A stretch of 64,000 nucleotides of DNA, taken from Marinobacter salinus (GTDB lineage Bacteria; Pseudomonadota; Gammaproteobacteria; Pseudomonadales; Oleiphilaceae). The notes under the pieces are model-generated. The model was not told the DNA's origin. It did not search any database and was given only the letters and a program-made list of their open reading frames with translations. Made by a program: the position numbers and the translations under genes. The stretch spans positions 3,038,001 to 3,102,000 of the forward strand of contig NZ_CP017715.1 of assembly GCF_001854125.1 (NCBI RefSeq), in the 5' to 3' direction. Below, piece by piece: positions 5,348-49,228 of the stretch. How positions within the stretch are numbered: position 1 is the stretch's first letter; each line of letters begins with the position of its first letter.

Positions 5348-6829
5348 CTAATGGCTGACCGTCGCCACTGGCAGCCAGAGCTGGAATTCCGCTCCCTTCG
5401 CCGTTCCATTCTGTGCTGCCAACCGACCTTGCTGCAGCTCGGCCATGCGCTGGGCAATGGCCAGGCCAAGACCCGCGTGCCCGGTGCGCGAGGAACCGGA
5501 AGCCTGGTAGAAAGGCTCGAACAGGTGGTCGATATCCTCTGGGGCAATGCCTGGCCCTGCGTCAGCCACCGTAACCCGGGCCGAACTGCCAGTGTCGTGA
5601 ATACCAAGCGTGACATCACTGTCCTCTGAGGAATGGGCAATGGCATTACTGATCAGGTTGTCCAGAATGCGCTCGGTCATGGCAATGTCTGCACGCACCA
5701 TTACCGGCGCCGCGACGGCAATGCGCAATCCGACACTGGCACGCTCTGCCTCGGGCTGGTGTTTCTGAACAACGTCATGCACCAGCTCGGCAATCATGAA
5801 GGGTTCGGGTGACGGTTGTTTCTCGCGAGCCTCCAGCGCGGCCAGCTCAAACAGTTCATCCAACAGTCGCCCAAGGCGGTGAGTCTCGGCCAGCGCCACG
5901 TCCAGGAAGCGCCTGCGCTCGGTCAGACTGAGAGACTCCTGCTTGATTTTCAAGGCTTCCAGGTAGCCCTGGATTGAGGCAAGAGGCGTGCGCAGGTCAT
6001 GGGACACCTGGGCAACCAGTTGGCGCCGCTGGTGGTCTTTATCTTTGAGTAGCTCCAACTGGGCCTCAATACGACAGGCCATCTGATCAAACCGGGCGCC
6101 CAGGTAATCGATGTCATCCCCTTGCGACAAGGTCCGTTCATTACCGACTGCCGCCGGGGCGTCACCAGCTTCAAAACGTTCCACCCTGTCCGTCAGCCGC
6201 GATAGTCTGCGGGTCAACAGATGGAAGAACAGCAGTCCTGCCAACAAGCCGACAAAAAGGCTGACAGCCAGGGCCCCCGCGCCCATCTGCAATAGCCGGT
6301 CACTGTGGACCATGCTCTCGGCCATATCGTATTCCTCGCCCCGCAACACCACATACAGGTACCCGGTGGGGTTCGCCTCGGAGGGCACAGGCGTGACCGA
6401 AAACACCTTACGCCGGTCATGGCTCCGGGGATCGTCTCCCGGTAGCGGGAACGCAGCTGGATCCGCAAGCAACGTTCTGATGGGCTCAAGTGAGACCCGG
6501 TTGCGTTTGATCTTGTCCGGATCCGCAGAGTAGGAAAGGATGCGCCCCTCACGATCCAGCAGGTAGATCTCAATACTGGGGTTGATGGTCATGTACAGTT
6601 CGAAAAGCTGCTTCAGGGCATCCCGGTTCAGCCGGCCATCGGTCACCAGGTTACGGTCGGATACCAGATTTCGGGCGAGGTCCCGGTTGAGTTCCTGGTT
6701 AACGGCAGCGGTGTATTCCCGCACCGAATACAGGCTGAGTACGGTGAAGAGCGCGCCCACGATCACCAGCAGCAGGAACAGACCCAGCGCCAGCCGGGCA
6801 TAGAGGGTTCGAAACAACGACAGCGCCAT
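5348..6829 (-). CDS. Sensor histidine kinase (HAMP-HisKA-HATPase)
   Basis: A 493-residue inner-membrane kinase that should phosphorylate the response regulator encoded 3 bp upstream. Transmembrane helices lie near residues 8-30 and 180-205 and flank a periplasmic sensor domain of about 150 residues. A HAMP linker follows (about 206-260), then the H-box VSHDLRTPLASIQGYLEAL with the phospho-accepting histidine near 276. ATP-binding motifs are present: N-box ILDNLISNAIAHS, G1 DAGPGIAPED, F-box LFEPFYQ and G2 GHAGLGLAIAQ. All catalytic motifs are intact. The ligand cannot be read from sequence; the neighbours (methionine-rich peptide, MsrAB) suggest oxidants or a metal such as copper. Confidence 0.95.
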   Translation of the reverse strand: MALSLFRTLYARLALGLFLLLVIVGALFTVLSLYSVREYTAAVNQELNRDLARNLVSDRNLVTDGRLNRDALKQLFELYMTINPSIEIYLLDREGRILSYSADPDKIKRNRVSLEPIRTLLADPAAFPLPGDDPRSHDRRKVFSVTPVPSEANPTGYLYVVLRGEEYDMAESMVHSDRLLQMGAGALAVSLFVGLLAGLLFFHLLTRRLSRLTDRVERFEAGDAPAAVGNERTLSQGDDIDYLGARFDQMACRIEAQLELLKDKDHQRRQLVAQVSHDLRTPLASIQGYLEALKIKQESLSLTERRRFLDVALAETHRLGRLLDELFELAALEAREKQPSPEPFMIAELVHDVVQKHQPEAERASVGLRIAVAAPVMVRADIAMTERILDNLISNAIAHSSEDSDVTLGIHDTGSSARVTVADAGPGIAPEDIDHLFEPFYQASGSSRTGHAGLGLAIAQRMAELQQGRLAAQNGTAKGAEFQLWLPVATVSH

Positions 6830-31822: not shown

Positions 31823-32971
31823 TCAATCGATGTCTACCTGAACAATCTTGCCGTCTTTCACCACTGCCAGGGTGGTGTCGGTAACAAAACCGCCTTTTTC
31901 CGTGACGTCGGTCACTTCGTATGGGTTCTTGCTGGTCGGCATGTTCTTCAGGGCTTTGCCAATGGCGGCACGGATCACCTTCGGGTCCGTGGACTCGGTG
32001 GCGTCCATGGCTTCAACAAGGCCATGCAGGGCCAGGTAGTTATAGGCCGCTTCCGAACCCGGAGTCTTGCCGTACTCGGCTTTATAACGCTTGATGAAGT
32101 CCTGGGCGGGCTCGGTTTCATAAACACTCAGAGGCACAACGCCAACGGCGCCTTCCACCATGTCCAGACCGCCGGCAACGCTGGCCACTTCGTCAATCTT
32201 GGCCTGGTCCATGACGATAAAGCCTCCCTGGAAGCCCATCTGACGGGCCTGCTGAACCACGAGGCCGGTTGGCTCGGATGCACCGCCCACAAACATCACC
32301 TCCGGATCCTCGGCAATGATGCGGCTCACGCCAGTGAAGAAGTCGGCAGACTTGTTGTAATCCATCGGATTATTGGCCACCACTTTACCGCCCTTGGACG
32401 TCCACTCTTTCTCGATCATGGACCCCCAGATCTTGGCGTATTCGTGGGTCGCGCCAGCCATACCCAGTGTGGTGCCGAGGTTTTCCAGAGCATAGTCCGT
32501 GAACGCACGGACATAACCGTCAAAGGTTGGCGGAATTCGTACCGTCAGGGAGTTACCCTTTTCAGTAACCGTGGGCACACTGGTGTACGCCATGATGAGG
32601 AAGTTGTCCTTTTCATTAAAGTCTTGCAGAGCAAAGACACCACCGGAGTGCGGAATGAAAATGGCCGGAACGTTGGATTCCTGCTTCAGGCGCTTGGCGT
32701 TGGTGGCGGCCTGAGCCGGAGAATAACGGTCGTCCAGGGAGACAAGGTTGATGGTGGTCTTTTCGCCATTCAGGTCGAAGCCGCCCGCTGCGTTGATTTC
32801 TTCAGCGGCCATCCGCAAGCCAGATAAGGTATTTTCACCATACAGTGCCGCACCGCCGCTAAGCGGGCCGGTAAAACCGATGTTCACTTCACCCGCCATG
32901 GTGCCAGCGGCAAGGCTCATGCCCAAGGTTGCTGCGGCGACAGCCTGACCCAGTGTTTTTGCTATTTTCAT
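31823..32971 (-). CDS. livK: LIV-type ABC transporter, periplasmic substrate-binding protein
   Basis: A 382-residue periplasmic binding protein with a signal peptide (MKIAKTLGQAVAAATLGMSL, cleavage near TMAGE). The mature part starts VNIGFTGPLSGGAALYGENTL, the typical type I fold entry, and continues with INLVSLDDRYSPAQAATNAKRL and PAIFIPHSGGVFALQDFNEK. It is the last gene of a five-gene LIV operon, after the two ATPases. Such transporters handle branched-chain amino acids, but many in marine degraders carry aromatic, alicyclic or short organic acids; the context favours an acid of the local catabolic regulon. Confidence 0.92.
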   Translation of the reverse strand: MKIAKTLGQAVAAATLGMSLAAGTMAGEVNIGFTGPLSGGAALYGENTLSGLRMAAEEINAAGGFDLNGEKTTINLVSLDDRYSPAQAATNAKRLKQESNVPAIFIPHSGGVFALQDFNEKDNFLIMAYTSVPTVTEKGNSLTVRIPPTFDGYVRAFTDYALENLGTTLGMAGATHEYAKIWGSMIEKEWTSKGGKVVANNPMDYNKSADFFTGVSRIIAEDPEVMFVGGASEPTGLVVQQARQMGFQGGFIVMDQAKIDEVASVAGGLDMVEGAVGVVPLSVYETEPAQDFIKRYKAEYGKTPGSEAAYNYLALHGLVEAMDATESTDPKVIRAAIGKALKNMPTSKNPYEVTDVTEKGGFVTDTTLAVVKDGKIVQVDID

Positions 32972-33021
32972 TGTTTTCTCCTGGTTTATTGCGCTCGTCG
33001 TTAATCAGTTTCCGGGGACCA

Positions 33022-33729
33022 TCAGGCCCCGATATATGCTTTGCGAACCTGCTCGTTACCCAGCATGGCTTCCCGGTCACCTTCCATAACGAGGTGGCCG
33101 TTTTCCATGACGTAGGCGCGGTGGGCGATTTTGAGGGCCGCAAAGGCATTCTGTTCAGCCAGCAACACGGTAGTGCCAAGGCTGTTGATCTGTTTGATGG
33201 TTTCGAACATCTGCTTTACCACCAGTGGTGCGAGACCGAGGGACGGCTCGTCCAGCATCAGCAGTCGCGGGCGGCTCATCATGGCGCGGCCAATGGCAAC
33301 CATCTGCTGCTGCCCCCCGGAAAGGGATCCGGCGGGTTGTTGGGCCTTGTCTTCAAGGATCGGGAACAGCTCCAGAACCTCGTTAAGACGTTTCTTGTTG
33401 CCCTGCCGGTCGCCACGATGAACAAAGGCCCCCATCATCAGGTTTTGCAGAACCGTCATCTGGGGAAATAGCTTGCGCCCTTCTGCACACTGCACCACTC
33501 CGCTGGAAACGATAGCACTGGCCTTCATGCCATTGAGAGTCTTGTCCTCAAAACGTATCTCGCCAGCGGTGGGTTTAATCAGCCCGCTGATGGCATTGAA
33601 CAGGGATGTCTTACCAGCGCCATTGGCTCCGAGCAGGACCACCAGTTCGCCGGTATCCACGGTCATGGAAATATCAGTAAGGGCCTTGAAGCTGCCATAA
33701 CAGACATCAACCTTCTCAAGCTGCAGCAT
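33022..33729 (-). CDS. livF: LIV-type ABC transporter ATP-binding protein LivF
   Basis: A 235-residue ATPase. Walker A is LLGANGAGKTSLFNAISG, the signature is GSLSGGQQQMVAIGRAMMS, Walker B is LLMLDEPSLGLAP and the switch histidine region is VLLAEQNAF. The ATG at 33729 sits eight bases after GGAGG; the next upstream ATG would be only two bases from it. The start lies 14 bp inside the end of livG, showing translational coupling. It pairs with LivG to power uptake. Confidence 0.95.
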   Translation of the reverse strand: MLQLEKVDVCYGSFKALTDISMTVDTGELVVLLGANGAGKTSLFNAISGLIKPTAGEIRFEDKTLNGMKASAIVSSGVVQCAEGRKLFPQMTVLQNLMMGAFVHRGDRQGNKKRLNEVLELFPILEDKAQQPAGSLSGGQQQMVAIGRAMMSRPRLLMLDEPSLGLAPLVVKQMFETIKQINSLGTTVLLAEQNAFAALKIAHRAYVMENGHLVMEGDREAMLGNEQVRKAYIGA

Positions 33730-34483
33730 CTTCATCACCTCCCAGATAGGCTTCAATCACTACCGGATTGTTACGAACTTCCTCCGGTGTGCCCTCGGCA
33801 ATCTTCTCGCCGTGATCCAGCACCATGATCTTGTCCGCCAGGCTCATGATCATGTCCATCTTGTGCTCAATCAGGCAGACGGTCAGGCCGTTATCCACCA
33901 TCTTGCGCATCAGCGCCGCAAAGCCTTCCGTTTCCTCCGGATTCACACCGGCGGCCGGCTCGTCCAGCAGCACAATTTTCGGATCGGTCGTCAGGGCAAG
34001 GGCGAAGGCAACACGCTTGCGCTCTTCCTGGGTAATGTCGGCAATGAACTGGCCGGCAACATGGGTCAGGCCGACAAAATCCAGGGCTTCCATCGCCTTG
34101 TCACGGGCCGCTTTTTCCTCACGCTGCAAACGCTTGCTGTTGATCAGCACATCCCACAGACCTGACTCGGTACGGAGGCGATGCCCCACAATAAGGTTGT
34201 CCAGCACCGACGCCTGCTCAAACAGGTTGGTGGTCTGGAATGTCCGGCCAACACCAAGCCGGGCGACCTTGTCGCAGGGCATGTTGGTGACATCCACACC
34301 GTCGAGCAGAATGTGCCCCGAGGTAGGCTGATGCAGACCGGAAATCAGGTTGAAGAAGGTACTCTTGCCAGCGCCGTTCGGGCCGATAATGGCGTTGATC
34401 TTGCCCGTTTCGAACTCCACGGACACATCGTTCACTGCGGCCAGGCCGCCGAACATTTTGGTCAGATGTTCTACCTTAAGCAT
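33716..34483 (-). CDS. livG: LIV-type ABC transporter ATP-binding protein LivG
   Basis: A 255-residue ATPase. Walker A is [18 protein letters not shown], the signature region is [19 protein letters not shown], Walker B is [13 protein letters not shown] and the switch region is [10 protein letters not shown]. The signature is changed from LSxGQ to ITQEE, as is common for LivG. The start overlaps the end of livM by 8 bp and the end overlaps livF. Confidence 0.95.
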
Positions 34484-35510
34484 TGTTTTCGGCCTCCCGG
34501 GTCTGAGCGGTCACAACTTTGCTCTCTTTGCGCTTTTTCCCCGGAGCGAGGGACTGGGCCTTGTGGTGCATCCAGGTAAGGAATGAGCCAGTGATTCCCC
34601 TGGGGAAAAAGATCACCAGGATGACCAGCAGCGGACCAAAGATGATCATCCGGTATTCCTCCAGGAACTGCAGGGACTGGGTGATCCAGATAATGCCCAC
34701 GGTCCCCAGTAGCGGACCGGTGATGGTGCCTATGCCGCCCACCAGCAGGTAGGTGATCATGTCGAAGGTATGAACGATGTTGGCCTCTTCCGGGCCAATA
34801 AACCGCACCATACCCGCATAAAGCGCACCCGCCAGACCGGCATAGGTGGTGGACAGCACGAATGCCAGCACCTTATTTCGCATCAGGTTGATGCCCAGGG
34901 ACTGCGCCAGCTCATCGCCATTACGGATGGCAATGAAGGTGCGGCCCAGCAGGGAACGGGACAATCTGCCCATGAACCAGATGGCGAACACCAGGAACGC
35001 CAGCACCAGATAATAAAAGGGGGTGGTTTCAGTGAAATCGACCAGGCCAAACCCGTAGGGTTCGGCTATGTCCCGGACACCGATAGGGCCGTGGGTGAGT
35101 TCTTCCCACTTATCGATCAGCAGGTAAATGATGAAGCCGACACACAGGGTGAAAATGGCGAAGTAATGCTCCTTCAGACGCAGGGATACTATACCCACGA
35201 AAAAGCCCAAAACCGCAGTTACCACCAGTGCGGCCAGAAACGCCGGCCAGAAGCTCCAGCCCGCATCCGCCGTGAGCAGACCGAGGGCGTAGGCGCCAAT
35301 GGCGAAGAAGCCACCATGGGCCAGGTTCAGCTGACCACAGAAACCGGTAATGATATTCAGACCATAGACAGCAATCGCCCAGACGAAGGCCGATGCCATC
35401 ACGTACACCTGATACTCATTGCTGGCCAGAAACGGGAAGACAATCGCAAATGCCAGCAGCGTCAGTTTCGCGCCTGGCTTCATTAACAAGGCTCCAAACT
35501 TGAACAACAT
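34476..35510 (-). CDS. livM: LIV-type ABC transporter permease LivM
   Basis: A 344-residue inner-membrane permease with about nine to ten helices. The family motif [29 protein letters not shown] is clear (I give it in parts: [20 protein letters not shown]), and the coupling-loop region reads [13 protein letters not shown]. The last 60 residues form a basic cytoplasmic tail ([17 protein letters not shown]). It lies 2 bp after livH and overlaps livG by 8 bp. Confidence 0.94.
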
Positions 35511-35512
35511 GA

Positions 35513-36376
35513 TCAGTGCGCCCCCTTCGCGAACAGGCCCTGCGGGCGGATGGAGAGAATCAATACCAACAGGCCGAAGGCAATGATGTCTTTGTAAGCG
35601 GTCGAGATGTAGAAACCGCCAAACGCTTCGGCAAACCCGATGATCATGCCGCCGACGATGGCACCGGGAATGCTCCCCATTCCTCCCAGAATAATAATGA
35701 CGAACGCTTTCATGATGACCAGATGCCCCATGGCTGGATAAACCAGGTTGATCGGGGCATAGAGGGTGGCGGCAATGGCGGCCAGGGCACCGGAAATCGC
35801 AAAGGTCATCATCGCCACGCGATTGGCATCGATGCCGACCAGGAAAGCACCTTCCCGGCTCTGGGCCATGGCAATAATCGTGGCACCGGTCATGGTCTTA
35901 CGCAGGAACATCTGCAAAACAAACACCAGGACGAAGGCCCCTACAATGATCAGCAGACGCTGTTCCGGGATGATCAGGCCATCAAAATTCATGATGCCGG
36001 TAAATGGTGAACTCATGCGACGGAAGTCCGAGCCCCAGAACATCTGCACCAGCGCTTCCAGGAACAGAAGAATGCCAATGGCGGCAATCTTGTCGTGGAT
36101 TGGAGGCGAGTGCCGGAGGGGGTGGAAAACCAGGCGTTCACAGATAATGCCCAGCACCGCAATAACGGCTGCGGAGCCGGCCATGGCAACCCAGTAGTGA
36201 ACACCGACATCGACCATGAAGAAGTACGACATGAACGCACCGACCATGTAGAGCGCGCCATGTGCGAAGTTCGGAATATGGAGAATGCCATAGACGAGAG
36301 TAAGGCCCAGGGCTACCAGACCGTAGATACTCCCCAGAGTTAATCCGTTGATGATTTGCTGGAAGAAAAGGTTCAA
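35513..36376 (-). CDS. livH: LIV-type ABC transporter permease LivH
   Basis: A 287-residue permease with about eight helices. It starts with QQIINGLTLGSIYGLVALGL and LVYGILHIPNFAHGALYMVG, both typical of LivH, and has VIILGGMGSIPGAIVGGMII near the end. It is the first gene of the LIV operon. Its promoter region has a small hairpin (36429-36446) and the full tandem operator-like element B. Confidence 0.95.
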   Translation of the reverse strand: MNLFFQQIINGLTLGSIYGLVALGLTLVYGILHIPNFAHGALYMVGAFMSYFFMVDVGVHYWVAMAGSAAVIAVLGIICERLVFHPLRHSPPIHDKIAAIGILLFLEALVQMFWGSDFRRMSSPFTGIMNFDGLIIPEQRLLIIVGAFVLVFVLQMFLRKTMTGATIIAMAQSREGAFLVGIDANRVAMMTFAISGALAAIAATLYAPINLVYPAMGHLVIMKAFVIIILGGMGSIPGAIVGGMIIGFAEAFGGFYISTAYKDIIAFGLLVLILSIRPQGLFAKGAH

Positions 36377-36536: not shown

Positions 36537-38207
36537 CTATCTTTGCCCGCCCTCCTTCCATTCTTCTTCCTGAAGCGCACGCCACATCAGCTTTCCAGTG
36601 GGGGACTTGGGCAGGGAGTCCACAAACTCAACAATGGTAGGCACCTTGTAGGCAGCCATCTGCTGCTTACACCAGGTGGCAATATCTTCGGCAGTGGTAG
36701 TGTCCTGTGCGTCCGGAGTGAGCACGATACAGGCTTTCACTGTCTCGCCCCGCTTGGGATCTGGAGAGGAAATGATGCATACCTCGTGGATCGCAGGATG
36801 ACGATACATCAGCCCTTCGACTTCGGACGGCCATACCTTGAACCCGGACGCGTTGATCATCCGTTTCACACGATCCACCATGAAGAAATAGCCGTCTTCA
36901 TCGTAGTAACCCAGATCGCCGGTGCGGAAAAACCGCTTGCCATCAATTTCTACAAAGGCAGCTTCGGTTTCCGCAGGTCGGTTCCAGTAACCAATAGTGA
37001 CCTGGGGGCCACAGGACACGATCTCGCCGGTTTCTCCCGGCGCTTTTTCTTCCAGGGTTTCCACGTCAATAATGCGGCTGTCTACATCAAACACCGGGAT
37101 ACCGAGGCATTGCGCTTTGGGGTGTGCGTTGGGGTTGATGTGCGTGGCTGCCATGGTTTCCGAAAGGCCGTAGCCCTCGATGTAATCCAGTCCCGTCATT
37201 TTTTTCAGTTTCTCGGCGACTGCAACCGGCATGGCGGCGCCACCGCCACCGATCATATTAAGGCTGCTGAGGTCGTACTTTGAGAGGTCCGGATTGGACA
37301 GAAAATCCACTGCCATGGTCACGATGTTGGTCCAGCCCGTGACCTTGTAGCGTTCGATAAGTCTGGCCGCCGTAGTACGATCCCAGCGGGTCATGATGAC
37401 CGACGTTGAGCCACTGAAAATGGGGCCGTTCATCGAACCAGTCATGCCGGTTACGTGAAAGAACGGCAAGGTGGCCAGTTGAACGCTGTCTGGCGTGGTC
37501 AGGTTCCAGAACACCCGGTGTACAGCGGTTGCCATGACAGAACGGTGAGTGTGCATGCACCCCTTGGGCGCACCCGTGGTGCCGGAACTATAAGGAATCA
37601 CCGCCAGATCTTCCGGCGTCGCCGTGTGGGGCAGAGGTGCGCACTTTTCTGCCATTGCCGCTTCCCAGGTCACCACGCCCGGAATATGTTTTGACCAGGC
37701 GGGCTCGGCGACTTCAGCCGGAAGGTCCAGATCGGTATCGGCTTTGATGTAGGTGCTGTACGACGCCACCACTACCTGCTCAAGATCTGTCTCCGCCAGC
37801 ATCGGCGCGATGAAGCCGGCAAGCTCCTGGCCTGCCAGGCACATAGCAGCGCCGGTGTCGGCAATGTAGTGCTCAAGTTCTGCAGCCCGGTTCATCGGAT
37901 TGACCGGAATCACCACGGCATCTGCTCGCAGGATGGCGTAGTAGGAAATCACATACTGTGCCGAGTTCTGCATGTACAACAGCACCCGGTCCCCCTTCTT
38001 GACGCCCTGGGCCTGAAGGTAGCCAGCCATGGCCTTGACCTCCGCCAGCAGGCGACGGTAGGTCATCGGTGCATCATAAAAAATGAGCGCAGTATGATCC
38101 GGATAGCGTTGGGCCGAGATTTCCAGATTGGTAAAAACACTGGTCTTCGGCAGAGTCATGGTCTTGGGCAGTTCCTTCGGCCAGACGTTGTAATGGCGTG
38201 TGAACAT
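36537..38207 (-). CDS. AMP-forming acyl-CoA ligase
   Basis: A 556-residue adenylate-forming enzyme that activates a carboxylic acid to acyl-AMP and then acyl-CoA. The P-loop is VIPYSSGTTGAPKGCMHTHRS, followed by the A5 region YGLSETMAATHINP, A7 RTGDLGYYDEDGYFFMVDR, A8 RVKRMINASGFKVWPSEVEG and the catalytic lysine in LPKSPTGKLMWRAL. It is of fatty-acyl or short-chain type; the substrate is not clear. It lies downstream (same strand) of surE with a 25-bp gap, so a surE-containing operon probably runs into it. Its end abuts the livH promoter region. Confidence 0.92.
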   Translation of the reverse strand: MFTRHYNVWPKELPKTMTLPKTSVFTNLEISAQRYPDHTALIFYDAPMTYRRLLAEVKAMAGYLQAQGVKKGDRVLLYMQNSAQYVISYYAILRADAVVIPVNPMNRAAELEHYIADTGAAMCLAGQELAGFIAPMLAETDLEQVVVASYSTYIKADTDLDLPAEVAEPAWSKHIPGVVTWEAAMAEKCAPLPHTATPEDLAVIPYSSGTTGAPKGCMHTHRSVMATAVHRVFWNLTTPDSVQLATLPFFHVTGMTGSMNGPIFSGSTSVIMTRWDRTTAARLIERYKVTGWTNIVTMAVDFLSNPDLSKYDLSSLNMIGGGGAAMPVAVAEKLKKMTGLDYIEGYGLSETMAATHINPNAHPKAQCLGIPVFDVDSRIIDVETLEEKAPGETGEIVSCGPQVTIGYWNRPAETEAAFVEIDGKRFFRTGDLGYYDEDGYFFMVDRVKRMINASGFKVWPSEVEGLMYRHPAIHEVCIISSPDPKRGETVKACIVLTPDAQDTTTAEDIATWCKQQMAAYKVPTIVEFVDSLPKSPTGKLMWRALQEEEWKEGGQR

Positions 38208-38232: not shown

Positions 38233-39030
38233 TCAGTTATCCGCCCATGCGGCTAAATCAAATTCATCGGTGCCCCCTGGCAGGGGGTCTTCGTGTCGCA
38301 ACGGTGTAATCGCAATCGCCCGGTCTCGCAGCACCGTGACGTCGGCATCCGGCGCGACAATATGGCGGGAGCTACGCTCAAAACCGAGCCACCAGTAAGG
38401 CAGGCTTCGGGCATCGCGACCCGCCAGCAGACGGGCGCGCTGAATGGAGCCGGTAGACTGCCGGCACCAGCGTGCGGAGGTAATTTCATCTGCGTCACAG
38501 GCGGGGAAATTCACATTCCAGGCGCGTACTTCCCCTGCCTGCCAAAGCTTTCGAATCACCGATTCGCCGAACCGTTCAACCGGCGACCAATGGATACCTT
38601 CGCGGGAAAGAAAAGCCTGGCTCAGGGCGATTGCCGGAATGTTCATGTGCAGGGCGCTGAGCACCGCACCGACCGTTCCGGAGTACTGCACGGAGTCACT
38701 GATGTTGGCGCCGCAATTTACTCCCGACAGCACCAGGTCCGGCGGCGTTTCACCGAACCACTGGGCGAGGGAATACAGCACGCAATCTGCCGGTGTACCG
38801 GAAACCGCATAGCGCTTTGGCCCCGTCTCGTAGACCCGCAAGGGATCATGGATCGAGATGCTCTGGCCCGCACCGCTGCGGTCATGCTCCGGCGCGACAA
38901 TCCAGACTTCCTCCGCCAGGTTGCGGGCGATCTTTTCCAGAACCGCCAACCCCGGTGCATTAATACCATCATCGTTGGTGATCAGAATGCGCCGAACGAT
39001 TGGCTGTGACGTGACGTACAGATCACTCAT
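38233..39030 (-). CDS. surE: SurE-family 5'/3'-nucleotidase (acid phosphatase)
   Basis: A 265-residue phosphatase of the SurE fold. The metal site is RILITNDDGINAPG near residue 15, and further conserved regions are VAPEHDRSGAGQSISIHDPL, SGTPADCV, DLVLSGVNCGANISDSVQYSGTVGA and WNVNFP. Metal-binding D-D, S and N are all present. The usual surE neighbours (truD, pcm, nlpD) are absent; instead the gene overlaps an APH-type kinase gene by 4 bp (ATGA) and precedes a CoA ligase gene. So it is likely a paralogue specialised to a phosphorylated catabolic intermediate rather than the stress-survival enzyme (inference). Confidence 0.88.
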   Translation of the reverse strand: MSDLYVTSQPIVRRILITNDDGINAPGLAVLEKIARNLAEEVWIVAPEHDRSGAGQSISIHDPLRVYETGPKRYAVSGTPADCVLYSLAQWFGETPPDLVLSGVNCGANISDSVQYSGTVGAVLSALHMNIPAIALSQAFLSREGIHWSPVERFGESVIRKLWQAGEVRAWNVNFPACDADEITSARWCRQSTGSIQRARLLAGRDARSLPYWWLGFERSSRHIVAPDADVTVLRDRAIAITPLRHEDPLPGGTDEFDLAAWADN

Positions 39031-40091
39031 GGCTGCTTCCCTTCACTGGCGATTTTCCAGCCCACCTGGGCCAGCAGGCTGGCACGCTTGCCAACGTCCA
39101 GGGCGTTGGCATTGGCGGCATTGCCGTCCAGTGCCCGTTTGTAAACGCCCTGCAGAATAGCCGCGAGCCTGAACAGGGAAAACGCCAGATAGACGTGCCA
39201 GTCATCGATACTGTCTCTGCCGGTTCTGGCACAGTAACGGGCAATGGTTTCCTGCTCGTTCGGCACACCCAGAGCCTCCAGATCCTCACCCTGAAGCCCC
39301 CGCATGCCCTCAAGATCTGACGGCAGGTAATAAGGAAGGCAGAAGTAGGCAAGGTCCGCCAGCGGATGCCCAAGTGTCGAAAGCTCCCAGTCCAGAATCG
39401 CGATCACCTCGGGCTTGTCCGGCGCCAGCATCAGGTTGCCGAACCGGTAGTCGCCGTGGGCGATGGCGCATTCGTCCGTGGACGGAAGGTTTTCCGGCAG
39501 CCAGGCCATAAGCTTGTCCATGGCGGGCATATCATCGGTCTTGGACGCCAGATATTGTTTGGTCCAGCGTGAAACCTGACGCGCCACATAGCCCTCCGGG
39601 CGCCCAAAGTCGCCGAGACCAATGGCGTTCACGTCCACAGAGTGCAGCTTGGCAAGGGTATCGATAGCGGACTGGTGAGCAGGCAGTCGCTCACTACGGT
39701 CCAATGCCCGCAGGGCCGAATGGCTGACGATCCGGCCTTCCATATAGTCCATGACGTAAAACGGCGTGCCAATAATCGAACTGTCCTCACACAGCACCCG
39801 AACCTTCGGAACAGGCACAACTGTGTGCTCCGACAGTGCGCGCATCACCTTGTATTCACGTTCCACCATGTGGGCGGATGGCAGCGTCTTTCCAGGTGGT
39901 TTCTTGCGCAGAACATAACGGCCGCTGTCGGTGTCCAGCAGGAACGTAGGGTTGGACTGACCACCCTGAAATTGTTTGACGTCCAGGCGATCACCAATCT
40001 CTGGCAACTCTTTTCGCAGCCAAACCAAAAGCCCGGACTCATCAAATTTGTGCGCTGGTAAAACCTCCACCAACTCCGGCTCCATACTCAT
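39027..40091 (-). CDS. APH-fold kinase of the ACAD10/11-associated type
   Basis: About 354 residues. This is the phosphotransferase family found fused to, or next to, ACAD10/11-type dehydrogenases, and related to LvaA of levulinate catabolism. Visible motifs are the nucleotide-binding start QFQGGQSNPTFLLDTDSGRYVLRKKPPGK, given in parts: FQGGQSNPTFLL and YVLRKKPPGKTLPSAH. The catalytic loop is AIAHGDYRFGNLML, with the metal-binding AILDWELSTLGHPLADLAYF. Such kinases phosphorylate the 4-hydroxy group of a hydroxyacyl-CoA. The start is uncertain between ATG codons at 40103, 40091 and 40085; AAGAAGG lies at a usable distance from the first two. Its end overlaps surE by 4 bp. Confidence 0.88.
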   Translation of the reverse strand: MSMEPELVEVLPAHKFDESGLLVWLRKELPEIGDRLDVKQFQGGQSNPTFLLDTDSGRYVLRKKPPGKTLPSAHMVEREYKVMRALSEHTVVPVPKVRVLCEDSSIIGTPFYVMDYMEGRIVSHSALRALDRSERLPAHQSAIDTLAKLHSVDVNAIGLGDFGRPEGYVARQVSRWTKQYLASKTDDMPAMDKLMAWLPENLPSTDECAIAHGDYRFGNLMLAPDKPEVIAILDWELSTLGHPLADLAYFCLPYYLPSDLEGMRGLQGEDLEALGVPNEQETIARYCARTGRDSIDDWHVYLAFSLFRLAAILQGVYKRALDGNAANANALDVGKRASLLAQVGWKIASEGKQP

Positions 40092-40150
40092 TGCTCGTCT
40101 CAACCTTCTTTAATCTTTATGTGTGACAGCCCGCAAAGAGTTCAGCGGAC

Positions 40151-40264: not shown

Positions 40265-41035
40265 TCAACAAATGGTTTCGCCACCATCCGCGACGATCAC
40301 CTGCCCGGTGATATAGGCACTGGCCTTGGTGGACAGAAAAACCGCCAGCCCGGCAATGTCGACCGGGTCGCCGATTCTTCTGAGCGGCGTCTTATCTTCC
40401 GCACGCTTTACCCGCACCGGATCTTCCCACAGGGCCTTGGCGAAGTCGGTCTTGATCAGGCCGGGGGCAATGCTGTTCACGCGGATGCCTTTCGGACCCC
40501 ATTCCACCGCGAGATTACGTGCCAGTGCCGCTTCCGCCGCCTTGGAGATGCCGTAGGTACCGATAGTGGTGTTGCCACGAATGCCTGCGATGCTGGACAG
40601 CAGCACCACCGTACCTTCGCCTCTCTCAGCCATCTGCGGCAGCACCATGTTGGTGAGCCAGAAAGTGCCTTTGACGTTGGTGTCCATGATCTTGTCCCAG
40701 GCCTCATCGGTCATTTCAGAGGTCGGGCCATAGACCGGATTGGTAGCGGCATTGCAGACCAGCACGTCGATGGATCCCCAGGCTTCGTTGGTTTTGTTTA
40801 CCAAGTTCTGCAGGTCGTCTTTCTTGCCCACATGACAGGGAATGGCGATGGCCTCATAACCCTGCTCCTTCAGTTCGTTCGCCACCTGTTCACAGGCGTC
40901 AGGCTTGCGGCTGGAGATCACGACTTTTGCACCCAGACGGGCCATTTCCTCGGCGATCGAGCGGCCAATCCCTTTGGTGGAGCCGGTAATCAGGGCAACC
41001 TTGCCGGTCATATCAAAAAGCGGGTTGTTCATCAT
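40265..41035 (-). CDS. Short-chain dehydrogenase/reductase
   Basis: A 256-residue classical SDR. The NAD(P) loop is ALITGSTKGIGRSIAEEMA; NAATNP is the structural NAG-like motif; the catalytic serine and Tyr-Lys pair are in LLSSIAGI and TYGISKAAEAALA. The end is AYITGQVIVADGGETIC. It probably oxidises or reduces a hydroxy/oxo-acyl-CoA. It starts 13 bp after the ACAD10/11-like gene on the same strand (first of two adjacent ATG codons after GAGG), so the two are co-transcribed. This is also the arrangement in phospho-dependent 4-hydroxy acid pathways. Confidence 0.92.
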   Translation of the reverse strand: MMNNPLFDMTGKVALITGSTKGIGRSIAEEMARLGAKVVISSRKPDACEQVANELKEQGYEAIAIPCHVGKKDDLQNLVNKTNEAWGSIDVLVCNAATNPVYGPTSEMTDEAWDKIMDTNVKGTFWLTNMVLPQMAERGEGTVVLLSSIAGIRGNTTIGTYGISKAAEAALARNLAVEWGPKGIRVNSIAPGLIKTDFAKALWEDPVRVKRAEDKTPLRRIGDPVDIAGLAVFLSTKASAYITGQVIVADGGETIC

Positions 41036-41048
41036 TCGATCCTCTTAC

Positions 41049-42257
41049 TCAAGACTGGCGGTACTGGCGAAGCTCAAGCTTGGCCACAGAATCCAGATGC
41101 ACCTCATCCGGTCCATCCGCCAGCCTCAACGTGCGCACTTTCGCCCAGGCCGATGCCAGGAAGGTGTCCTGACTTACGCCGGCGCCACCATGTACCTGAA
41201 TGGCACGGTCGATCACTTTCAGCGCCATACTCGGAGCAATCACCTTGATCATGGCGATTTCCTGACGAGCTACCTTGTTACCTACGGTGTCCATCATGTG
41301 CGCCGCTTTCAGGGTCATCAGGCGGGCCTGCTCGATTTCAATACGACTGCGGGCAATGTCCTTGCGAATGGAGTCAAAGCTGGACAGTGGCTTGCCGAAC
41401 GCCTCGCGTTCATTGGCACGCTTGCACATCAATTCCAATGCCCGCTCGGCAACACCGATAGTACGCATGCAATGGTGAATACGGCCCGGCCCAAGACGAC
41501 CCTGGGCAATTTCAAAACCGCGGCCCTCACCCAGCAGCATGTTGCTGACCGGCACACGCACGTTCTCGTAATGGATCTCGGCATGGCCGTGAGGGGCGTG
41601 GTCATACCCAAACACCGTCAGGGGACGAACCATCTTCACGCCCGGAGAGTCCAGCGGCACCAGAATCATCGACTGTTGCTGGTGTTTCGGCGCATCCGGA
41701 TCGGTCTTGCCCATCACGATGGCAATCTTCGAGGTCGTCGTCATTGCACCCGACGACCACCACTTCTTCCCGTTGATCACGTACTCGTCGCCTTCGCGAC
41801 GGATCTCGCAGGCAATATTGGTTGCATCCGATGAGGCCACATCCGGCTCGGTCATGGAGAAACAGGAACGGATTTCACCCGCCAGCAAAGGTTTAAGCCA
41901 CTGCTCCTGCTGCTCCTTATTACCGTAGCGTGCAATGGTTTCCATGTTGCCGGTATCCGGGGCGGAGCAGTTGAATACTTCCGGTGCCATCTCGGAGCGG
42001 CCCATAATCTCGCACAGATGGGCGTATTCGAAGTTGGTCAGGCCGGCGCCGAAGTCACTCTCCGGCAAAAACAGATTCCACAGGCCGGCGGCTTTTGCCT
42101 TGACCTTGAGCTCTTCAATAATGGGAACCGGAGCCCAGCGATTTTCAGCCTGTTCAACCTGTTCGTGATGCTTGTGCTCATTCGGATAGATGTGCGCATC
42201 CATGAATTCATTCAACTGCGCCTGCAGTTTTTTCGCTTTATCAGACAGCTCAAACAT
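41049..42257 (-). CDS. Acyl-CoA dehydrogenase, ACAD10/11-like
   Basis: A 402-residue enzyme closely resembling the dehydrogenase part of ACAD10/11: [72 protein letters not shown] and [20 protein letters not shown] are all characteristic. The family handles 4-hydroxyacyl-CoAs in their phosphorylated form, using the kinase to make the 4-phosphate a leaving group. Kinase and dehydrogenase are fused in the animal ACAD11 and separate here. It is the first gene of its minus-strand unit, 85 bp after the thioesterase gene. Confidence 0.92.
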
Positions 42258-42342: not shown

Positions 42343-42783
42343 TCAGATCGGGACGCCTTCCGGCTTGTCACTGCCAGATCGTATCCGGAAGGTACCTTCT
42401 GCGATGGCAAGCAGGTTGCCCTGATCATCATGTACTTCACCTGTGCTGTTAAAAATCCGGGTGCCACCGGCACGCTTGCGCCCGGTTACGCGGATGGTGC
42501 CGCTGGAGCACTGACCGGTGAAGGTAGTGGTCAGCGACAGGGTAATAGCCTTGCGCATACGCCCGGGGTATGGGCAGTAAGTACCCGCCTGGGCCATGGC
42601 AATATCGAGCAATGAAGTGAGGACGCCACCGTGAATGACACCACCGAGATTCAGGTGCCGGGGCTGGAGCTCAAGCGCGATCACCGCTTCATTCTCTTCC
42701 CAGGACGCCTGGTGGTAACCCAGCAGGCTGTGAAACCCGGGCAAATCTTTTCCATCAATGAAATCAGTCTCTTGGGTACTCAT
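42343..42783 (-). CDS. PaaI-type hot-dog thioesterase
   Basis: A 146-residue single hot-dog domain. The thioesterase motif is LNLGGVIHGGVLTSLLDIAMAQAG, shown as HLNLGGVIHGGVLTSLLDIA, which contains the HGG and the catalytic aspartate. TTTFTGQCSSGTIRVTGRK follows. It hydrolyses a CoA thioester, perhaps to free CoA from a dead-end product of the cluster. Its ATG overlaps the stop codon of the upstream SDR gene by one base (TAATG), so translation is coupled. Confidence 0.9.
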   Translation of the reverse strand: MSTQETDFIDGKDLPGFHSLLGYHQASWEENEAVIALELQPRHLNLGGVIHGGVLTSLLDIAMAQAGTYCPYPGRMRKAITLSLTTTFTGQCSSGTIRVTGRKRAGGTRIFNSTGEVHDDQGNLLAIAEGTFRIRSGSDKPEGVPI

Positions 42784-43577
42784 TACACCTTCATTCCTGG
42801 CAGGTTCAGGGAAGCCGTATTGCCGCCATCCACTGGCAACGCCTGGCCGGTGATGTAACTGGCGTCGTCGCTGGCGAAAAACAGTATGGCGGCTGCAATC
42901 TCCTCAGCATCACCATAACGGCGTAACTCACAGCGGGAGCCCAGTTTGTGGGCCTTTTCGTGAGTCCGTGCGTAATCGAATACCGCTCGGGTCATCCCGG
43001 TCTCCACCAGGCCGGGGCAAACAGCATTCACTCGGACATTATCATTACCCAGATCGCAGGCAGCGGTCATGGTCAGATTGATGACGCCAGCCTTGGAAGC
43101 ACTGTAAGCATTGCCTCCCGCGCCAGACCGGATCCCCGCGACCGACGCCGTATTGACGATAGCGCCAAGCTTGCGTGCCTGCATATGCGGGGCAACATGT
43201 TTTATGAACAGCATGGTTCCGATGAGATTAACCGACAGGACCTTGTCCCATTCATTGCGATCATTCGCGGTCACCGGAGGATGGCCATTGCCGGTACTGG
43301 CGATGCCGGCAACGTTGCACAGAACGTCGATTTTTCCAAAACCGGCCATGGTTTCATCCACCAACTCCCTCACCAGGTCCTCGTCCGCCACATCAATCAC
43401 GCGGCGAAGGCACTCAGCGCCTTCGGGCAGCCTGTTCTCGGTTTCAATCAGGCCCGCTTCGGAGGTATCTGCTATCACCACACGCGCACCTTCCCGAGCC
43501 AACCGCAACGCCGTTGCACGGCCAATTCCACTGCCCGCTCCGGTCACAATCGCTACCCGATGCTCAAAACGCCCCAT
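42783..43577 (-). CDS. Short-chain dehydrogenase/reductase
   Basis: A 264-residue classical SDR. The nucleotide loop is AIVTGAGSGIGRATALRLA; NVAGIAS is the structural motif; the catalytic residues lie in NTASVAGIRSGAGGNAYSASKAG. The end is ASYITGQALPVDGGNTASLN. It resembles 3-hydroxyacyl-CoA or cyclic-alcohol dehydrogenases, but the substrate is open. It begins the unit that includes the thioesterase and probably the ACAD10/11-like and SDR genes, and is divergent from a CoA ligase gene (145-bp gap). Confidence 0.9.
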   Translation of the reverse strand: MGRFEHRVAIVTGAGSGIGRATALRLAREGARVVIADTSEAGLIETENRLPEGAECLRRVIDVADEDLVRELVDETMAGFGKIDVLCNVAGIASTGNGHPPVTANDRNEWDKVLSVNLIGTMLFIKHVAPHMQARKLGAIVNTASVAGIRSGAGGNAYSASKAGVINLTMTAACDLGNDNVRVNAVCPGLVETGMTRAVFDYARTHEKAHKLGSRCELRRYGDAEEIAAAILFFASDDASYITGQALPVDGGNTASLNLPGMKV

Positions 43578-46071: not shown

Positions 46072-46236
46072 TGAACTATCCTTCTGGAAACATTCTGTTG
46101 TTGTCGTCTGAAAACATCCTATTGCAAAAAGCCAATCTTGTGATAGATTCAAATAACAAGATTCACCATGCAGTCGCCTATTCTGCACAGTGAAACACCA
46201 AAGAAATGCCACTACAATAACGAACGAGGCCAAGTC

Positions 46237-47283
46237 ATGAATCTCTTCGCCAACGCACGCAAAAGCCTGACCCTTTATGCGTCAGCCCTTACCCTCGGGA
46301 TTTCCGCCGCACTTTCCGCCGCGCCGGCAGCCGCCCAGGAAACGTATACATGGAAAGTCCAGTCTCACTGGCCGGGCTCCAGCAGTTCTTACACGGACAG
46401 TCTGGTTCGACTGCAGCGGGTTCTGGACGAGCGCACTGATGGCCGCCTGCAACTGAAATTGTACGAAGCCGGCGCACTGTTCAAATCAAAGGAAATCTTT
46501 AACGCCGTGAGCCGCGGAATCCTGGAAATGGGAACCATCTCTCCGGCTTACGCCCAAGACAAAGTTTCTGTTGCAGGCATCGCCTCTGGCCTGCCATTCG
46601 CCTTCCGCAACGTTTGGGAAGCAGCCTATTTCCATCAGAACATGGGCTTTGAGCAGATGCTTCGTGATGAAGCTGCCGAGCACGGCGTTTACTGGGCAAC
46701 CGACAAGGTCTATCCCACCGAGATGGTGGTCAAGAAGCCGATCAAGAGTTGGGAAGACTTCACCAGCCTGAAAATCCGGTCCTCCGGTGCCCTGCAAACG
46801 TTCCTGACCGAGGCCGGCGCCGCCGCTTCCTATATTCCGGGCAGCGAGCTGTACTCTGCGCTGGATTCCGGAATTGTTGATGGTGCCCACTGGGGTGCTG
46901 CCCAGGGTGCCTACAGCATGGGCCTCTATGAAGTGGCCAAGTACCACGTACAACCGGCCCTGAACATTGCCGGTACTGACGCCATCATTGTCAGCCAGAA
47001 GGCCCTCGACAAACTGCCGGAAGATATGCAGAAGACCGTCAAGGATGCCCTCAGCGAGCAGTTCTGGATCCGTACCAACGAGTACCAGTACAAGGAGCGA
47101 ATCACTCTGGCCAAGGCGATTGCCGAAGAGGGCGTGGAGGTCAATGTTCTGCCTGATGACGTGCAGTCAAAGCTGGTGCAAACCGCACAGAAGATGTGGG
47201 ACGAGGAAGGCAAGCGCAGCGAAAACGCCCAGAAGGCACTCGATATGCTGAAAGGCTACCTGGCTGAGCTCGGCTACCTCTGA
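46237..47283 (+). CDS. dctP: TRAP transporter substrate-binding protein (DctP family)
   Basis: A 348-residue periplasmic binding protein with a signal peptide (MNLFANARKSLTLYASALTL, cleavage near AAAQE). The mature start is TYTWKVQSHWPGSSSSYTDS; the arginine and acid-binding region LKIRSSGALQTFLTEAGAA and the conserved YSALDSGIVDGAHWGA are typical of the alpha-keto-acid or mannitol-type DctP. It captures a carboxylate in the periplasm for the DctQM permease. A terminator follows, so the binding protein should be made in excess over the permease. An in-frame start 69 bp upstream lacks a ribosome site. Confidence 0.93.
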   Translation: MNLFANARKSLTLYASALTLGISAALSAAPAAAQETYTWKVQSHWPGSSSSYTDSLVRLQRVLDERTDGRLQLKLYEAGALFKSKEIFNAVSRGILEMGTISPAYAQDKVSVAGIASGLPFAFRNVWEAAYFHQNMGFEQMLRDEAAEHGVYWATDKVYPTEMVVKKPIKSWEDFTSLKIRSSGALQTFLTEAGAAASYIPGSELYSALDSGIVDGAHWGAAQGAYSMGLYEVAKYHVQPALNIAGTDAIIVSQKALDKLPEDMQKTVKDALSEQFWIRTNEYQYKERITLAKAIAEEGVEVNVLPDDVQSKLVQTAQKMWDEEGKRSENAQKALDMLKGYLAELGYL

Positions 47284-47303
47284 TCCTGGCCGTTTAAGAA
47301 AGC

Positions 47304-47339
47304 AAAAAAGGCCGGAGCCAATCGTCTCCGGCCTTTTTA
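47304..47339 (+). terminator. Terminator between dctP and dctQM
   Basis: AAAAAAGGCCGGAG pairs with CTCCGGCCTTTTT around a seven-base loop. Because dctQM continues on the same strand 37 bp later, it probably works as a partial terminator that sets the ratio of binding protein to permease. Confidence 0.88.
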
Positions 47340-47375
47340 TCCCTGAATAGAACCAACGTCCTCCTGGAGAATACC

Positions 47376-47921
47376 ATGGGTGTGATCACCGCATTCATGA
47401 GAGGGGTTACCCGTCTCAATGATTTTGTCGGGCGCTGGATAGCCCTCCTCATTTTTGCCATGTTCGTGTTCCTGCTACTGGAGGTTGGGTTCCGTTACCT
47501 GCTTAACTCACCAACAGTCTGGACCAACGAGCTCACCCAGATGCTGTTCGGGGTATACGCTGTTATGTCAGGTGGCTACATCATGGCGCATCGGGGCCAT
47601 GTCAACGTTGACCTTCTGCACTCCCATCTTGCGCCGCGCAAACGCGCGGTCATGGATATCGCAACCTCCCTGGTGTTTTTCATTTTCACTCTGGCTTTGC
47701 TCTGGTTCGGTATCGATATGGCCAGTGAGTCCATCTCCAGCTGGGAAAGCTCCTACTCGGCCTGGAACCCTCCCGTCTGGCCAGTAAAGCTTGCCATACC
47801 CCTGGGGACAGGACTTCTTGTACTGCAGGGACTGGTCAAACTGCTTGAGGACATCGCCATCGCCTTTGACCTTGACTATTACACCCCTGAAGAGAGCGAA
47901 TCCGAAGGAGAACAGCTGTGA
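47376..47921 (+). CDS. dctQ: TRAP transporter small permease (DctQ family)
   Basis: A 181-residue inner-membrane protein with four helices (about residues 18-38, 50-75, 90-115 and 130-155). Family marks are LNDFVGRWIALLIFAMFVFLL and the loop FRYLLNSPTVWTNELTQMLF. The last 25 residues form an acidic cytoplasmic tail (DYYTPEESESEGEQL). It overlaps dctM by 4 bp (stop TGA within GTGA). Confidence 0.92.
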   Translation: MGVITAFMRGVTRLNDFVGRWIALLIFAMFVFLLLEVGFRYLLNSPTVWTNELTQMLFGVYAVMSGGYIMAHRGHVNVDLLHSHLAPRKRAVMDIATSLVFFIFTLALLWFGIDMASESISSWESSYSAWNPPVWPVKLAIPLGTGLLVLQGLVKLLEDIAIAFDLDYYTPEESESEGEQL

Positions 47922-49228
47922 GTATTGAAGTCCTGACCCTGCTGTTCTTTGGCGCACTGCTGTTTTTCCTGCTGCTGGGGCTGCCACTGGCGTTTGTTCT
48001 TGGCGGCGTGTCCGTGGTTTTTCTCTATTTCACCTGGGGGTTTGACTCCTTTTATATGGTCGCCTCGCAAATCTGGGGCACCATGGGCAGCTTTACCCTG
48101 GTGGCCATTCCGCTGTTCGTCTTCATGGCCATGATCCTGGAACGAACCGGTGTGGCAAGGGATCTGTACCGGATGATGCACCTCTGGTGCGGCGGTCTCC
48201 GGGGCGGACTTGCCCTTGGGACTCTAGGCATCTGCGCCGTATTCGCCGCGATGGTTGGTATCAGTGGCGCCGCCGTGGTCGCCATGGGCACGATTGCTCT
48301 GCCCTCGATGTTAGAAAGAGGCTACGACAAGAGCATGGCGCTGGGCGTCATCAACACCGGTGGTGGCTGGGGCATCCTGATCCCGCCCAGCATCCTGATG
48401 ATCCTCTACGCCCTCATTACCGGTGTGTCCGTCGGCAAAATGTTTGCCGCAGGTATCATGCCCGGCATTCTGTTGATGGTGCTTACCGCCATTTACATCC
48501 TGGTTAGATGCCATCTCCAACCGGAACTCGCGCCGGCCCTTCCCAAAGAGGAACGTGGTACCTGGCCCGAAAAATTGCGCGCATTACGGGCCGTGCTCCT
48601 ACCCATTGGGGTGGTTGTTATGGTCCTCGGCTCGATCATCGGCGGTATTACCACCCCGACAGAGGCGGCTGCCATGGGTGTACTTGGGTCCCTGATTTCC
48701 GCGGCAGTCTATCGCCAGTTCAAATGGGACATTCTCAAGGAAGCGGCAATCCGGACCTTCAAACTCACCGGCATGATCATGTGGATTCTGTTCGCCGCCC
48801 ACGCCTTCAGTGCCGCCTATCAAAGCATGGGCGCCCAGGAACTTATTGAAGGCCTGATGAACATGATTCCCGGTGGTCCATGGGGCATTATCATTGCAAT
48901 GATGGTGATCGTTTTCCTGCTGGCGATGGTACTGGATCCCGTAGGCATCATGCTGATCACCCTGCCGGTGTTCATGCCGATTGTGGAGAGTCTGGGGTTC
49001 GATCCAATCTGGTTCGGTATCCTCTTCGTGATCAATATGGAAATCGGGTACATGACCCCGCCATTCGGCTTCAACCTTTTCTACCTGAAAGGTATTGTGC
49101 CGCCGAGCATCACCATGAAAGACATCTACAAGTCGATTATCCCGTTCGTCATCGTGGAGATAATCGGCATTGGCCTGATCATGGTATTTCCGGAGATCGC
49201 AACCTGGCTGCCCGACCTCTTTTTCTGA
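47918..49228 (+). CDS. dctM: TRAP transporter large permease (DctM family)
   Basis: A 436-residue inner-membrane protein with about 11-12 helices, the transport channel of the sodium-coupled TRAP system. Conserved segments are LLLGLPLAFVLGGVSVVFLY, GISGAAVVAMGTIALPSML, GGWGILIPPSILMILYALIT, GGITTPTEAAAMGVLGSLIS and MEIGYMTPPFGFNLFYLKGI. It starts with GTG inside the dctQ stop. A strong terminator follows. Confidence 0.94.
   Translation: MSIEVLTLLFFGALLFFLLLGLPLAFVLGGVSVVFLYFTWGFDSFYMVASQIWGTMGSFTLVAIPLFVFMAMILERTGVARDLYRMMHLWCGGLRGGLALGTLGICAVFAAMVGISGAAVVAMGTIALPSMLERGYDKSMALGVINTGGGWGILIPPSILMILYALITGVSVGKMFAAGIMPGILLMVLTAIYILVRCHLQPELAPALPKEERGTWPEKLRALRAVLLPIGVVVMVLGSIIGGITTPTEAAAMGVLGSLISAAVYRQFKWDILKEAAIRTFKLTGMIMWILFAAHAFSAAYQSMGAQELIEGLMNMIPGGPWGIIIAMMVIVFLLAMVLDPVGIMLITLPVFMPIVESLGFDPIWFGILFVINMEIGYMTPPFGFNLFYLKGIVPPSITMKDIYKSIIPFVIVEIIGIGLIMVFPEIATWLPDLFF

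Follow-up and report, generated by a model that had tools for sequence, protein, structure and literature searches.

A surE gene overlapping a kinase gene in an acyl-CoA operon

The window, by which we mean the whole stretch of 64,000 nucleotides that was analysed, belongs to the one-contig, 4.12-Mb genome of Marinobacter salinus. On its minus strand it carries a gene for a SurE-family phosphatase of 265 aa, here called surE2 (38233..39030), whose product matches Pfam PF01975 (E 3.8e-56; 190.3 bits vs a cut-off of 22.1) and NF001490 (251.6 vs 233). The gene stands directly behind one for an APH-fold kinase of the ACAD10/11 type (39027..40103, minus strand; PF01636, E 2.2e-54), the likely start of which is an in-frame ATG at 40091; this is also where a preliminary description of the locus, made from the sequence, had placed the end of the pair. 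An overlap of 4 bp between the two genes had been claimed there, and it is present: the kinase stop overlaps the surE2 start as ATGA (39027..39030, minus strand). Across 46 distinct genomes the junction reads ATGA in 36 and GTGA in 2, the rest having a 1-bp overlap (1) or a gap of 9-34 bp (7). Since an AGGGA stretch lies seven bases 5' of the surE2 start, within the kinase gene, coupled and independent initiation are both possible.

The cluster genes listed next lie on the minus strand. Upstream of the kinase are a short-chain dehydrogenase/reductase (SDR) gene that is a conserved member of the core cassette (40265..41035; PF13561/PF00106), the gene for an ACAD11-type acyl-CoA dehydrogenase (41049..42257), and genes for a hotdog-fold thioesterase (42343..42783; PF03061, TIGR00369) and a second short-chain dehydrogenase (42783..43577; PF13561). 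Directly downstream of surE2 is a fatty acyl-CoA ligase gene (36537..38207; NCBIfam NF006181, 878.9 bits, cut-off 705), followed by branched-chain-amino-acid-type ABC transporter genes for a binding protein, two ATPases and two permeases (31823..36376; PF13458, PF00005 twice, once with PF12399, and PF02653 twice). The core order acad-sdr-kinase-surE was kept in 19 of 20 diverse loci, and in 19 of 20 the kinase was clustered with an ACAD11-type dehydrogenase gene. The ligase follows surE2 in most loci (it was not seen at L052 of genome G008), and ABC transporter genes stand behind the cassette in many loci, not all.

Against the PDB, the kinase matched 3dxp (E 9.2e-107) and ACAD11 (8v3v, E 1.2e-87 over residues 9-352; also 8v3u), with 9o56 likewise among its best solved relatives. 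The dehydrogenase matched ACAD11 (8v3u, E 2.2e-148; also 8v3v and 2wbi) and a putative acyl-CoA dehydrogenase (4hr3, E 4.3e-136), the next match being 4iv6 (E 2.3e-41). By sequence, the two proteins of the window are nearest to the two domains of ACAD11, and phosphorylation of 4-hydroxyacyl-CoA is predicted. As described in passages of PMC11342911 and PMC12440821, ACAD10 and ACAD11 convert 4-hydroxyacyl-CoA through a phospho intermediate to 2-enoyl-CoA. The TRAP transporter genes DctP, DctQ and DctM (46168-49228), on the plus strand at the far end of the cluster, may serve uptake of its organic acid.

SurE is a stationary-phase survival nucleotidase. That the window copy lies away from the usual partners of surE was noted early on, together with the suggestion that a canonical copy might sit near pcm or nlpD. 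Such a copy exists in the genome: a second surE (G000:C1:1753906-1754592), encoding a protein 33% identical to SurE2, has an ispF-type (YgbB) gene and truD upstream and pcm downstream, all three Pfam-confirmed. Because it is this second gene that has the truD and pcm neighbours, the copy in the kinase operon is the non-canonical one.

Features and ancestry of the SurE2 protein

Residues D20, D21, S52 and N105 of SurE2 are kept in 52 of 52 aligned operon copies, many of them near relatives. We take S52 and N105, a Ser and an Asn, to be SurE metal-site residues. Aspartates D8 and D9 are given as metal-site residues of SurE in a section of PMC3567009. Judged from these residues, the metal site of SurE2 is intact. 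An AlphaFold2 model of the protein (pLDDT 84.5) is confident except in the loop of residues 51-60 and at the ends, and the 50 PDB matches listed for it are all SurE chains, the best being 4zg5, labelled Brucella abortus (E 1.0e-22). Since confidence is lowest in the active-site loop (residues 51-60), the pocket is unreadable.

At 15 positions, at least 95% of the operon copies have one residue that occurs in fewer than 20% of the sequences of both canonical sets. Three of these positions (56, 58 and 61) belong to the loop that follows the metal-binding Ser. Residue 113 is Ser in operon copies and Asp in canonical SurE (10/10 gammaproteobacterial and 51/52 alphaproteobacterial sequences). A Lysobacterales copy, outside the set of 52, differs at several of the 15 positions, and in it Ser 102 is replaced by Ala. 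The distinguishing positions would be compatible with a changed substrate, none of which they name.

A quick SurE tree of 70 rows, a thinned subset of 139, was rooted at the midpoint; its support values are SH-aLRT only, and two very long branches were kept. A 17-row clade (support 100) consisted of 16 operon copies, with L149 of genome G321 counted as operon, plus L315; the copy of G008 (L052) fell outside it and inside a 23-row clade (support 99). The SurEs of the operon, G008, Nisaea and Pseudomonas group with alphaproteobacterial SurE, away from gammaproteobacterial canonical copies. A recent duplication of canonical surE was considered as the source of surE2 and rejected, given its grouping with alphaproteobacterial SurE.

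Phosphatase genes beside kinases of the ACAD10/11 type

A surE2 paralogue was found in 75 of 151 genomes of the family, at 45-100% identity; among the matches listed, other surE copies were 31-37% identical to surE2. In the relatives of the operon in Marinobacter species, the identity of SurE was 77-86%. Whether surE stands beside ACAD10/11-type genes in other genomes was a question raised by the preliminary description, and in the family the pairing is conserved: surE2 lies directly behind the kinase in 74 of the 75 genomes, and less than 400 bp from it on the same strand in 73. In G006 (L066) the two are divided by a contig end alone, with the kinase piece in place. G113 is the sole surE2 genome with the kinase elsewhere, about 54 kb off. 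The original site in this genome is without acad, kinase and one SDR gene, and surE2 remains; the cluster of the distant kinase (L061) includes a histidine phosphatase gene (stretches L061:6257-10929 and L037:8443-10525 together).

An orthologous kinase occurs in 83 of the 151 genomes, this number being the 88 with matches at E <=1e-80 minus five at 50-55% identity. Seventy-five of the 83 have surE2. In the other eight the kinase is followed directly by the ligase, the aligned parts being 37-64 bp apart, and surE2 is thus optional in the operon. The median dN/dS was 0.18 for surE2 (41 pairs), 0.12 for the kinase (44) and 0.08 for the dehydrogenase (49), with synonymous sites near saturation; surE2 is under purifying selection. 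Of the earlier interpretation, a non-canonical surE with a conserved ACAD10/11-type kinase partner stands; the pairing is not obligatory. A sole surE with an unconserved linkage would have counted against that interpretation; the genome has a second surE, and family genomes keep the linkage.

Among named genomes, a scan recovered the complete cassette from Stutzerimonas urumqiensis (L074) and from a Lysobacterales MAG (L093). We also sampled 100 kinase loci from 92 genomes outside the family, comprising 20 of the 24 non-own places of a class search and 80 of a phylum search; the latter were chosen down the match list, with some rows passed over and lower rows left out. SurE stands beside the kinase in three of the 100 (L202, L222 and L223), all from the same class, with gene order unchanged. 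Chance or local synteny alone was considered as the source of the pairing and is out, as cassette and surE recur together in Stutzerimonas, the Lysobacterales MAG and three sampled outside-family genomes; moreover, the downstream transporter genes vary among loci while the kinase-surE pair is constant, which argues against local synteny alone.

A kinase tree was built from 90 of 135 rows after thinning, and 21 of the 22 SurE-linked kinases fell into one 28-row clade (SH-aLRT 96). The last, that of a Nisaea MAG (L091), lies just outside; in Nisaea the kinase and surE genes are adjacent and divergently oriented. The linkage of the 22 kinases needs five changes on this tree, which fits one old gain of surE and several losses, a change count alone being unable to separate gain from loss. 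The groupings of the SurE tree resemble those of the kinase tree.

Several surE genes and cassettes of other make-up were seen along the way. In an alphaproteobacterial MAG (L137:8-1292) and a Proteobacteria MAG (L141:5836-9726), a surE of a different SurE branch lies near an ACAD11-type dehydrogenase gene. In the Lysobacterales MAG G806 (L315:608-3245) a SurE2 relative stands between crotonase-type and ketopantoate-reductase-type genes, with no kinase in 3.5 kb. Four Pseudomonas loci (L075, L078, L081 and L086, at about 6000-6800) hold a second surE of the wider group and no such kinase within the stretches read. Three loci (L062, L064 and L065) from a related genus of Marinobacteraceae have the cassette without a phosphatase; one was expected after the kinase, and the gene found there in L065 is a zinc-binding dehydrogenase, the other two looking alike.

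An unrelated phosphatase recurs beside kinases of the same family. To locate histidine phosphatases, a relaxed sequence motif was combined with a local profile and with Pfam. In 14 of the 100 outside-family loci the kinase has a His_Phos_1 phosphatase gene on its own strand no more than 3.6 kb away (PF00300 in 9 of 9 tested), and at 12 of these 14 the stretch also holds an ACAD11-type dehydrogenase gene. HAD-like motif matches were found in 4 of the 100 loci, and neither SurE nor a histidine phosphatase is nearby in 83. With surE2 lacking from eight of the 83 family genomes that have the kinase as well, a phosphatase gene is evidently not required. When immediate same-strand neighbours were counted, SurE made up 3 of 90 downstream genes and His_Phos_1 6 of 96 upstream genes; no further phosphatase family appeared among the best 25 of 61 and of 45 families in this census, the gene calls of which were mechanical and partly wrong in GC-rich loci. 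A calcineurin-like phosphoesterase gene in G108 (L063:8406-9044), divergent from another such kinase, is a single case.

Conversely, of 58 homologous histidine phosphatases from 398 genomes, 12 have a kinase of the phylum search no more than 1.4 kb away, where about 0.1 would be expected under uniform placement in genomes of 4.5 Mb. The excess is real, but its odds are overstated, because the rows are related to one another and the query was itself kinase-linked (it comes from G683 and counts among the 12). Twenty-six of the other 46 were read: ten have a less closely related kinase of the same type at 0.9 kb or less, and 16 do not. The window genome is among these ten, with a second APH kinase gene and a histidine phosphatase gene that overlap as TAATG (G000:C1:2189435-2191185). 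This second kinase is 33% identical to that of the window, its best PDB match being 9o56 and then ACAD11. It belongs to a second ACAD11-type cassette (positions 5646-10261 of L332, G000:C1:2183000-2197000), made up of genes for an acyl-CoA dehydrogenase 55% identical to that of the window, an SDR-type protein, the kinase, the histidine phosphatase and an SDR. Across the family, the histidine phosphatase gene is directly downstream of 127 of 136 such kinases, and the eight genomes without surE2 retain this second pair. In G601, which has two kinase loci, one (L223) is beside SurE and the other (L235) has a histidine phosphatase. That a phosphatase unrelated to SurE, the histidine phosphatase, turns up repeatedly next to kinases of this family speaks for a phosphatase function linked to the pathway.

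Possible function of SurE2 and relation to known systems

The operon may serve the entry of 4-hydroxy acids, or of 4-keto acids, into beta-oxidation. Formation of the CoA ester would fall to the ligase, and an SDR could reduce a 4-keto group; the kinase would then phosphorylate the 4-hydroxyl, and the ACAD11-type dehydrogenase would eliminate the phosphate to give the enoyl-CoA. SurE2 would be a metal-dependent phosphomonoesterase dedicated to this pathway, with the 4-phospho-acyl species left by the dehydrogenase as its targets: CoA ester in surplus, species of the wrong stereochemistry or chain length, or free 4-phospho acid that thioester hydrolysis leaves behind. Its action would give back the 4-hydroxy compound and free CoA and phosphate, and coupled translation would ensure that cells making the kinase also have some of the phosphatase. 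We give about an even chance to the proposal that SurE2 hydrolyses surplus or dead-end 4-phospho-acyl species in a 4-hydroxy acid operon. It is supported by gene content, family membership, the conserved coupling, the intact metal site, purifying selection and the second phosphatase fold; from these we infer the substrate of the pathway, that of SurE2 and the benefit of having it. A phosphatase on the main path would merely undo the work of the kinase, since the dehydrogenase already consumes the phospho intermediate, and damage control would be the simplest use of SurE2. The safety valve guessed at in the preliminary description is plausible, now with comparative support.

The idea of a phosphatase-fold partner that limits 4-phospho-acyl-CoA is already published for other folds (in parts of PMC11342911 and PMC6692424). 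According to passages of PMC11342911, the HAD domain of ACAD10 was expected to dephosphorylate 4-phospho-acyl-CoA and had negligible phosphatase activity; its mutation raises kinase output, and the authors propose that the HAD domain limits build-up of the intermediate. The same passages report the free 4-phospho acid in mammalian cells making the CoA ester. Against our proposal, hydrolysis of the intermediate of its own kinase would be a futile cycle unless SurE2 is selective. Moreover, the optional nature of surE2, the 83 of 100 kinase loci without SurE or histidine phosphatase and the HAD precedent weigh against a strict requirement. Also speaking against the proposal are G113, where surE2 persists with the kinase about 54 kb off, and the three Marinobacteraceae loci whose cassette is without a phosphatase. 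We are a little less confident of a broader proposal, to which we give somewhat under an even chance: that 4-hydroxyacyl-CoA kinases are recurrently paired with unrelated phosphatase folds (SurE, histidine phosphatase and the HAD of ACAD10), and that one SurE lineage was re-tooled from nucleotides to phospho-acyl compounds for repair or overflow. Among the papers listed by literature searches, weakened by SurE being also an English word, none was found to link SurE to this pathway; three of them (PMC12431658, PMC7381183 and PMC8322695) contain a SurE phrase as well as acyl-CoA and were set aside on their titles. We class the locus as a known pathway in which one component, SurE, is uncommon.

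It is also conceivable, if unlikely, that SurE2 is an ordinary nucleotidase or polyphosphatase, acting for instance on AMP released by the ligase or on the 3'-phosphate of CoA. The SurE family is annotated as 5'/3'-nucleotidase, the metal site of SurE2 is intact and the operon has a ligase of the AMP-forming type. However, 13 of 14 genomes checked have at least two SurE matches and 10 of 14 have another copy beside pcm (G601 has no match other than its cassette surE), so that a nucleotidase would already be on hand. Moreover, in G008 the kinase is directly upstream of surE2 but a search of the neighbourhood did not detect the usual ligase, SurE2 departs from canonical SurE at the 15 positions, and a histidine phosphatase is found elsewhere beside kinases of the same family. 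Slightly less probable still is that SurE2 serves as a binding partner or brake of the kinase, with hydrolysis secondary. The ATGA coupling suggests co-translation, and there are published precedents in the HAD domain of ACAD10 (in part of PMC11342911) and in LvaB, which binds LvaA as described in PMC6692424, but the metal-site residues are present in 52 of 52 copies, vs an incomplete motif in the HAD domain, and eight genomes retain the operon without surE2.

We consider it improbable that SurE2 acts on another phosphate ester of the cluster, such as an incoming phosphorylated substrate. The SurE2 relative of G806 and the four Pseudomonas relatives, which have no such kinase in the stretches read, would agree with this; yet the strongest and widest linkage of surE2 is to the kinase. 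Least probable is that the main route itself includes dephosphorylation of 4-phospho-acyl-CoA by SurE2, akin to the removal of phosphate from 4-phosphovaleryl-CoA that the authors suggest for a Pseudomonas citronellolis histidine phosphatase (in part of PMC6692424), because the dehydrogenase part of ACAD10/11 consumes the phospho intermediate (per passages of PMC11342911), hydrolysis would merely restore the 4-hydroxy substrate and many operons show no such gene. If, as we prefer, SurE2 clears surplus or dead-end 4-phospho-acyl species, a dedicated copy would give one SurE lineage a defined metabolic job. The two kinase-phosphatase pairs of one genome would also be simple bacterial systems in which to study the reason for the fusion of a phosphatase-fold domain with the ACAD10 kinase in animals, and to learn whether accumulating 4-phospho-acyl-CoA, or its free acid, does harm.

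Canonical SurE of the truD/surE/pcm setting shares the fold and the metal-site residues of SurE2. It differs in its locus, in its tree group, at the 15 positions and in sequence, the two being 33% identical in the Marinobacter salinus genome. Among mammalian proteins, ACAD11 has domains that are among the closest solved relatives of the window's kinase and dehydrogenase, and ACAD10 has a phosphatase-fold HAD domain beside its kinase; in the window, in contrast, the genes are separate, and the SurE metal site is intact, whereas the HAD domain of ACAD10, according to PMC11342911, is without one motif aspartate. The levulinate pathway of Pseudomonas putida follows the same phosphorylation logic, as told in PMC6692424, and its lva operon (LvaA, LvaB, LvaC, LvaD and LvaE) clusters kinase, acyl-CoA dehydrogenase, SDR and CoA ligase as the window does; the window operon, unlike the lva operon, carries surE. 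In the levulinate cluster of Pseudomonas citronellolis LA18T, which according to passages of PMC6692424 is without lvaB and has a histidine phosphatase, kinase, phosphatase, acyl-CoA dehydrogenase and SDR stand together as in the window, but the phosphatase there has a fold unrelated to that of SurE.
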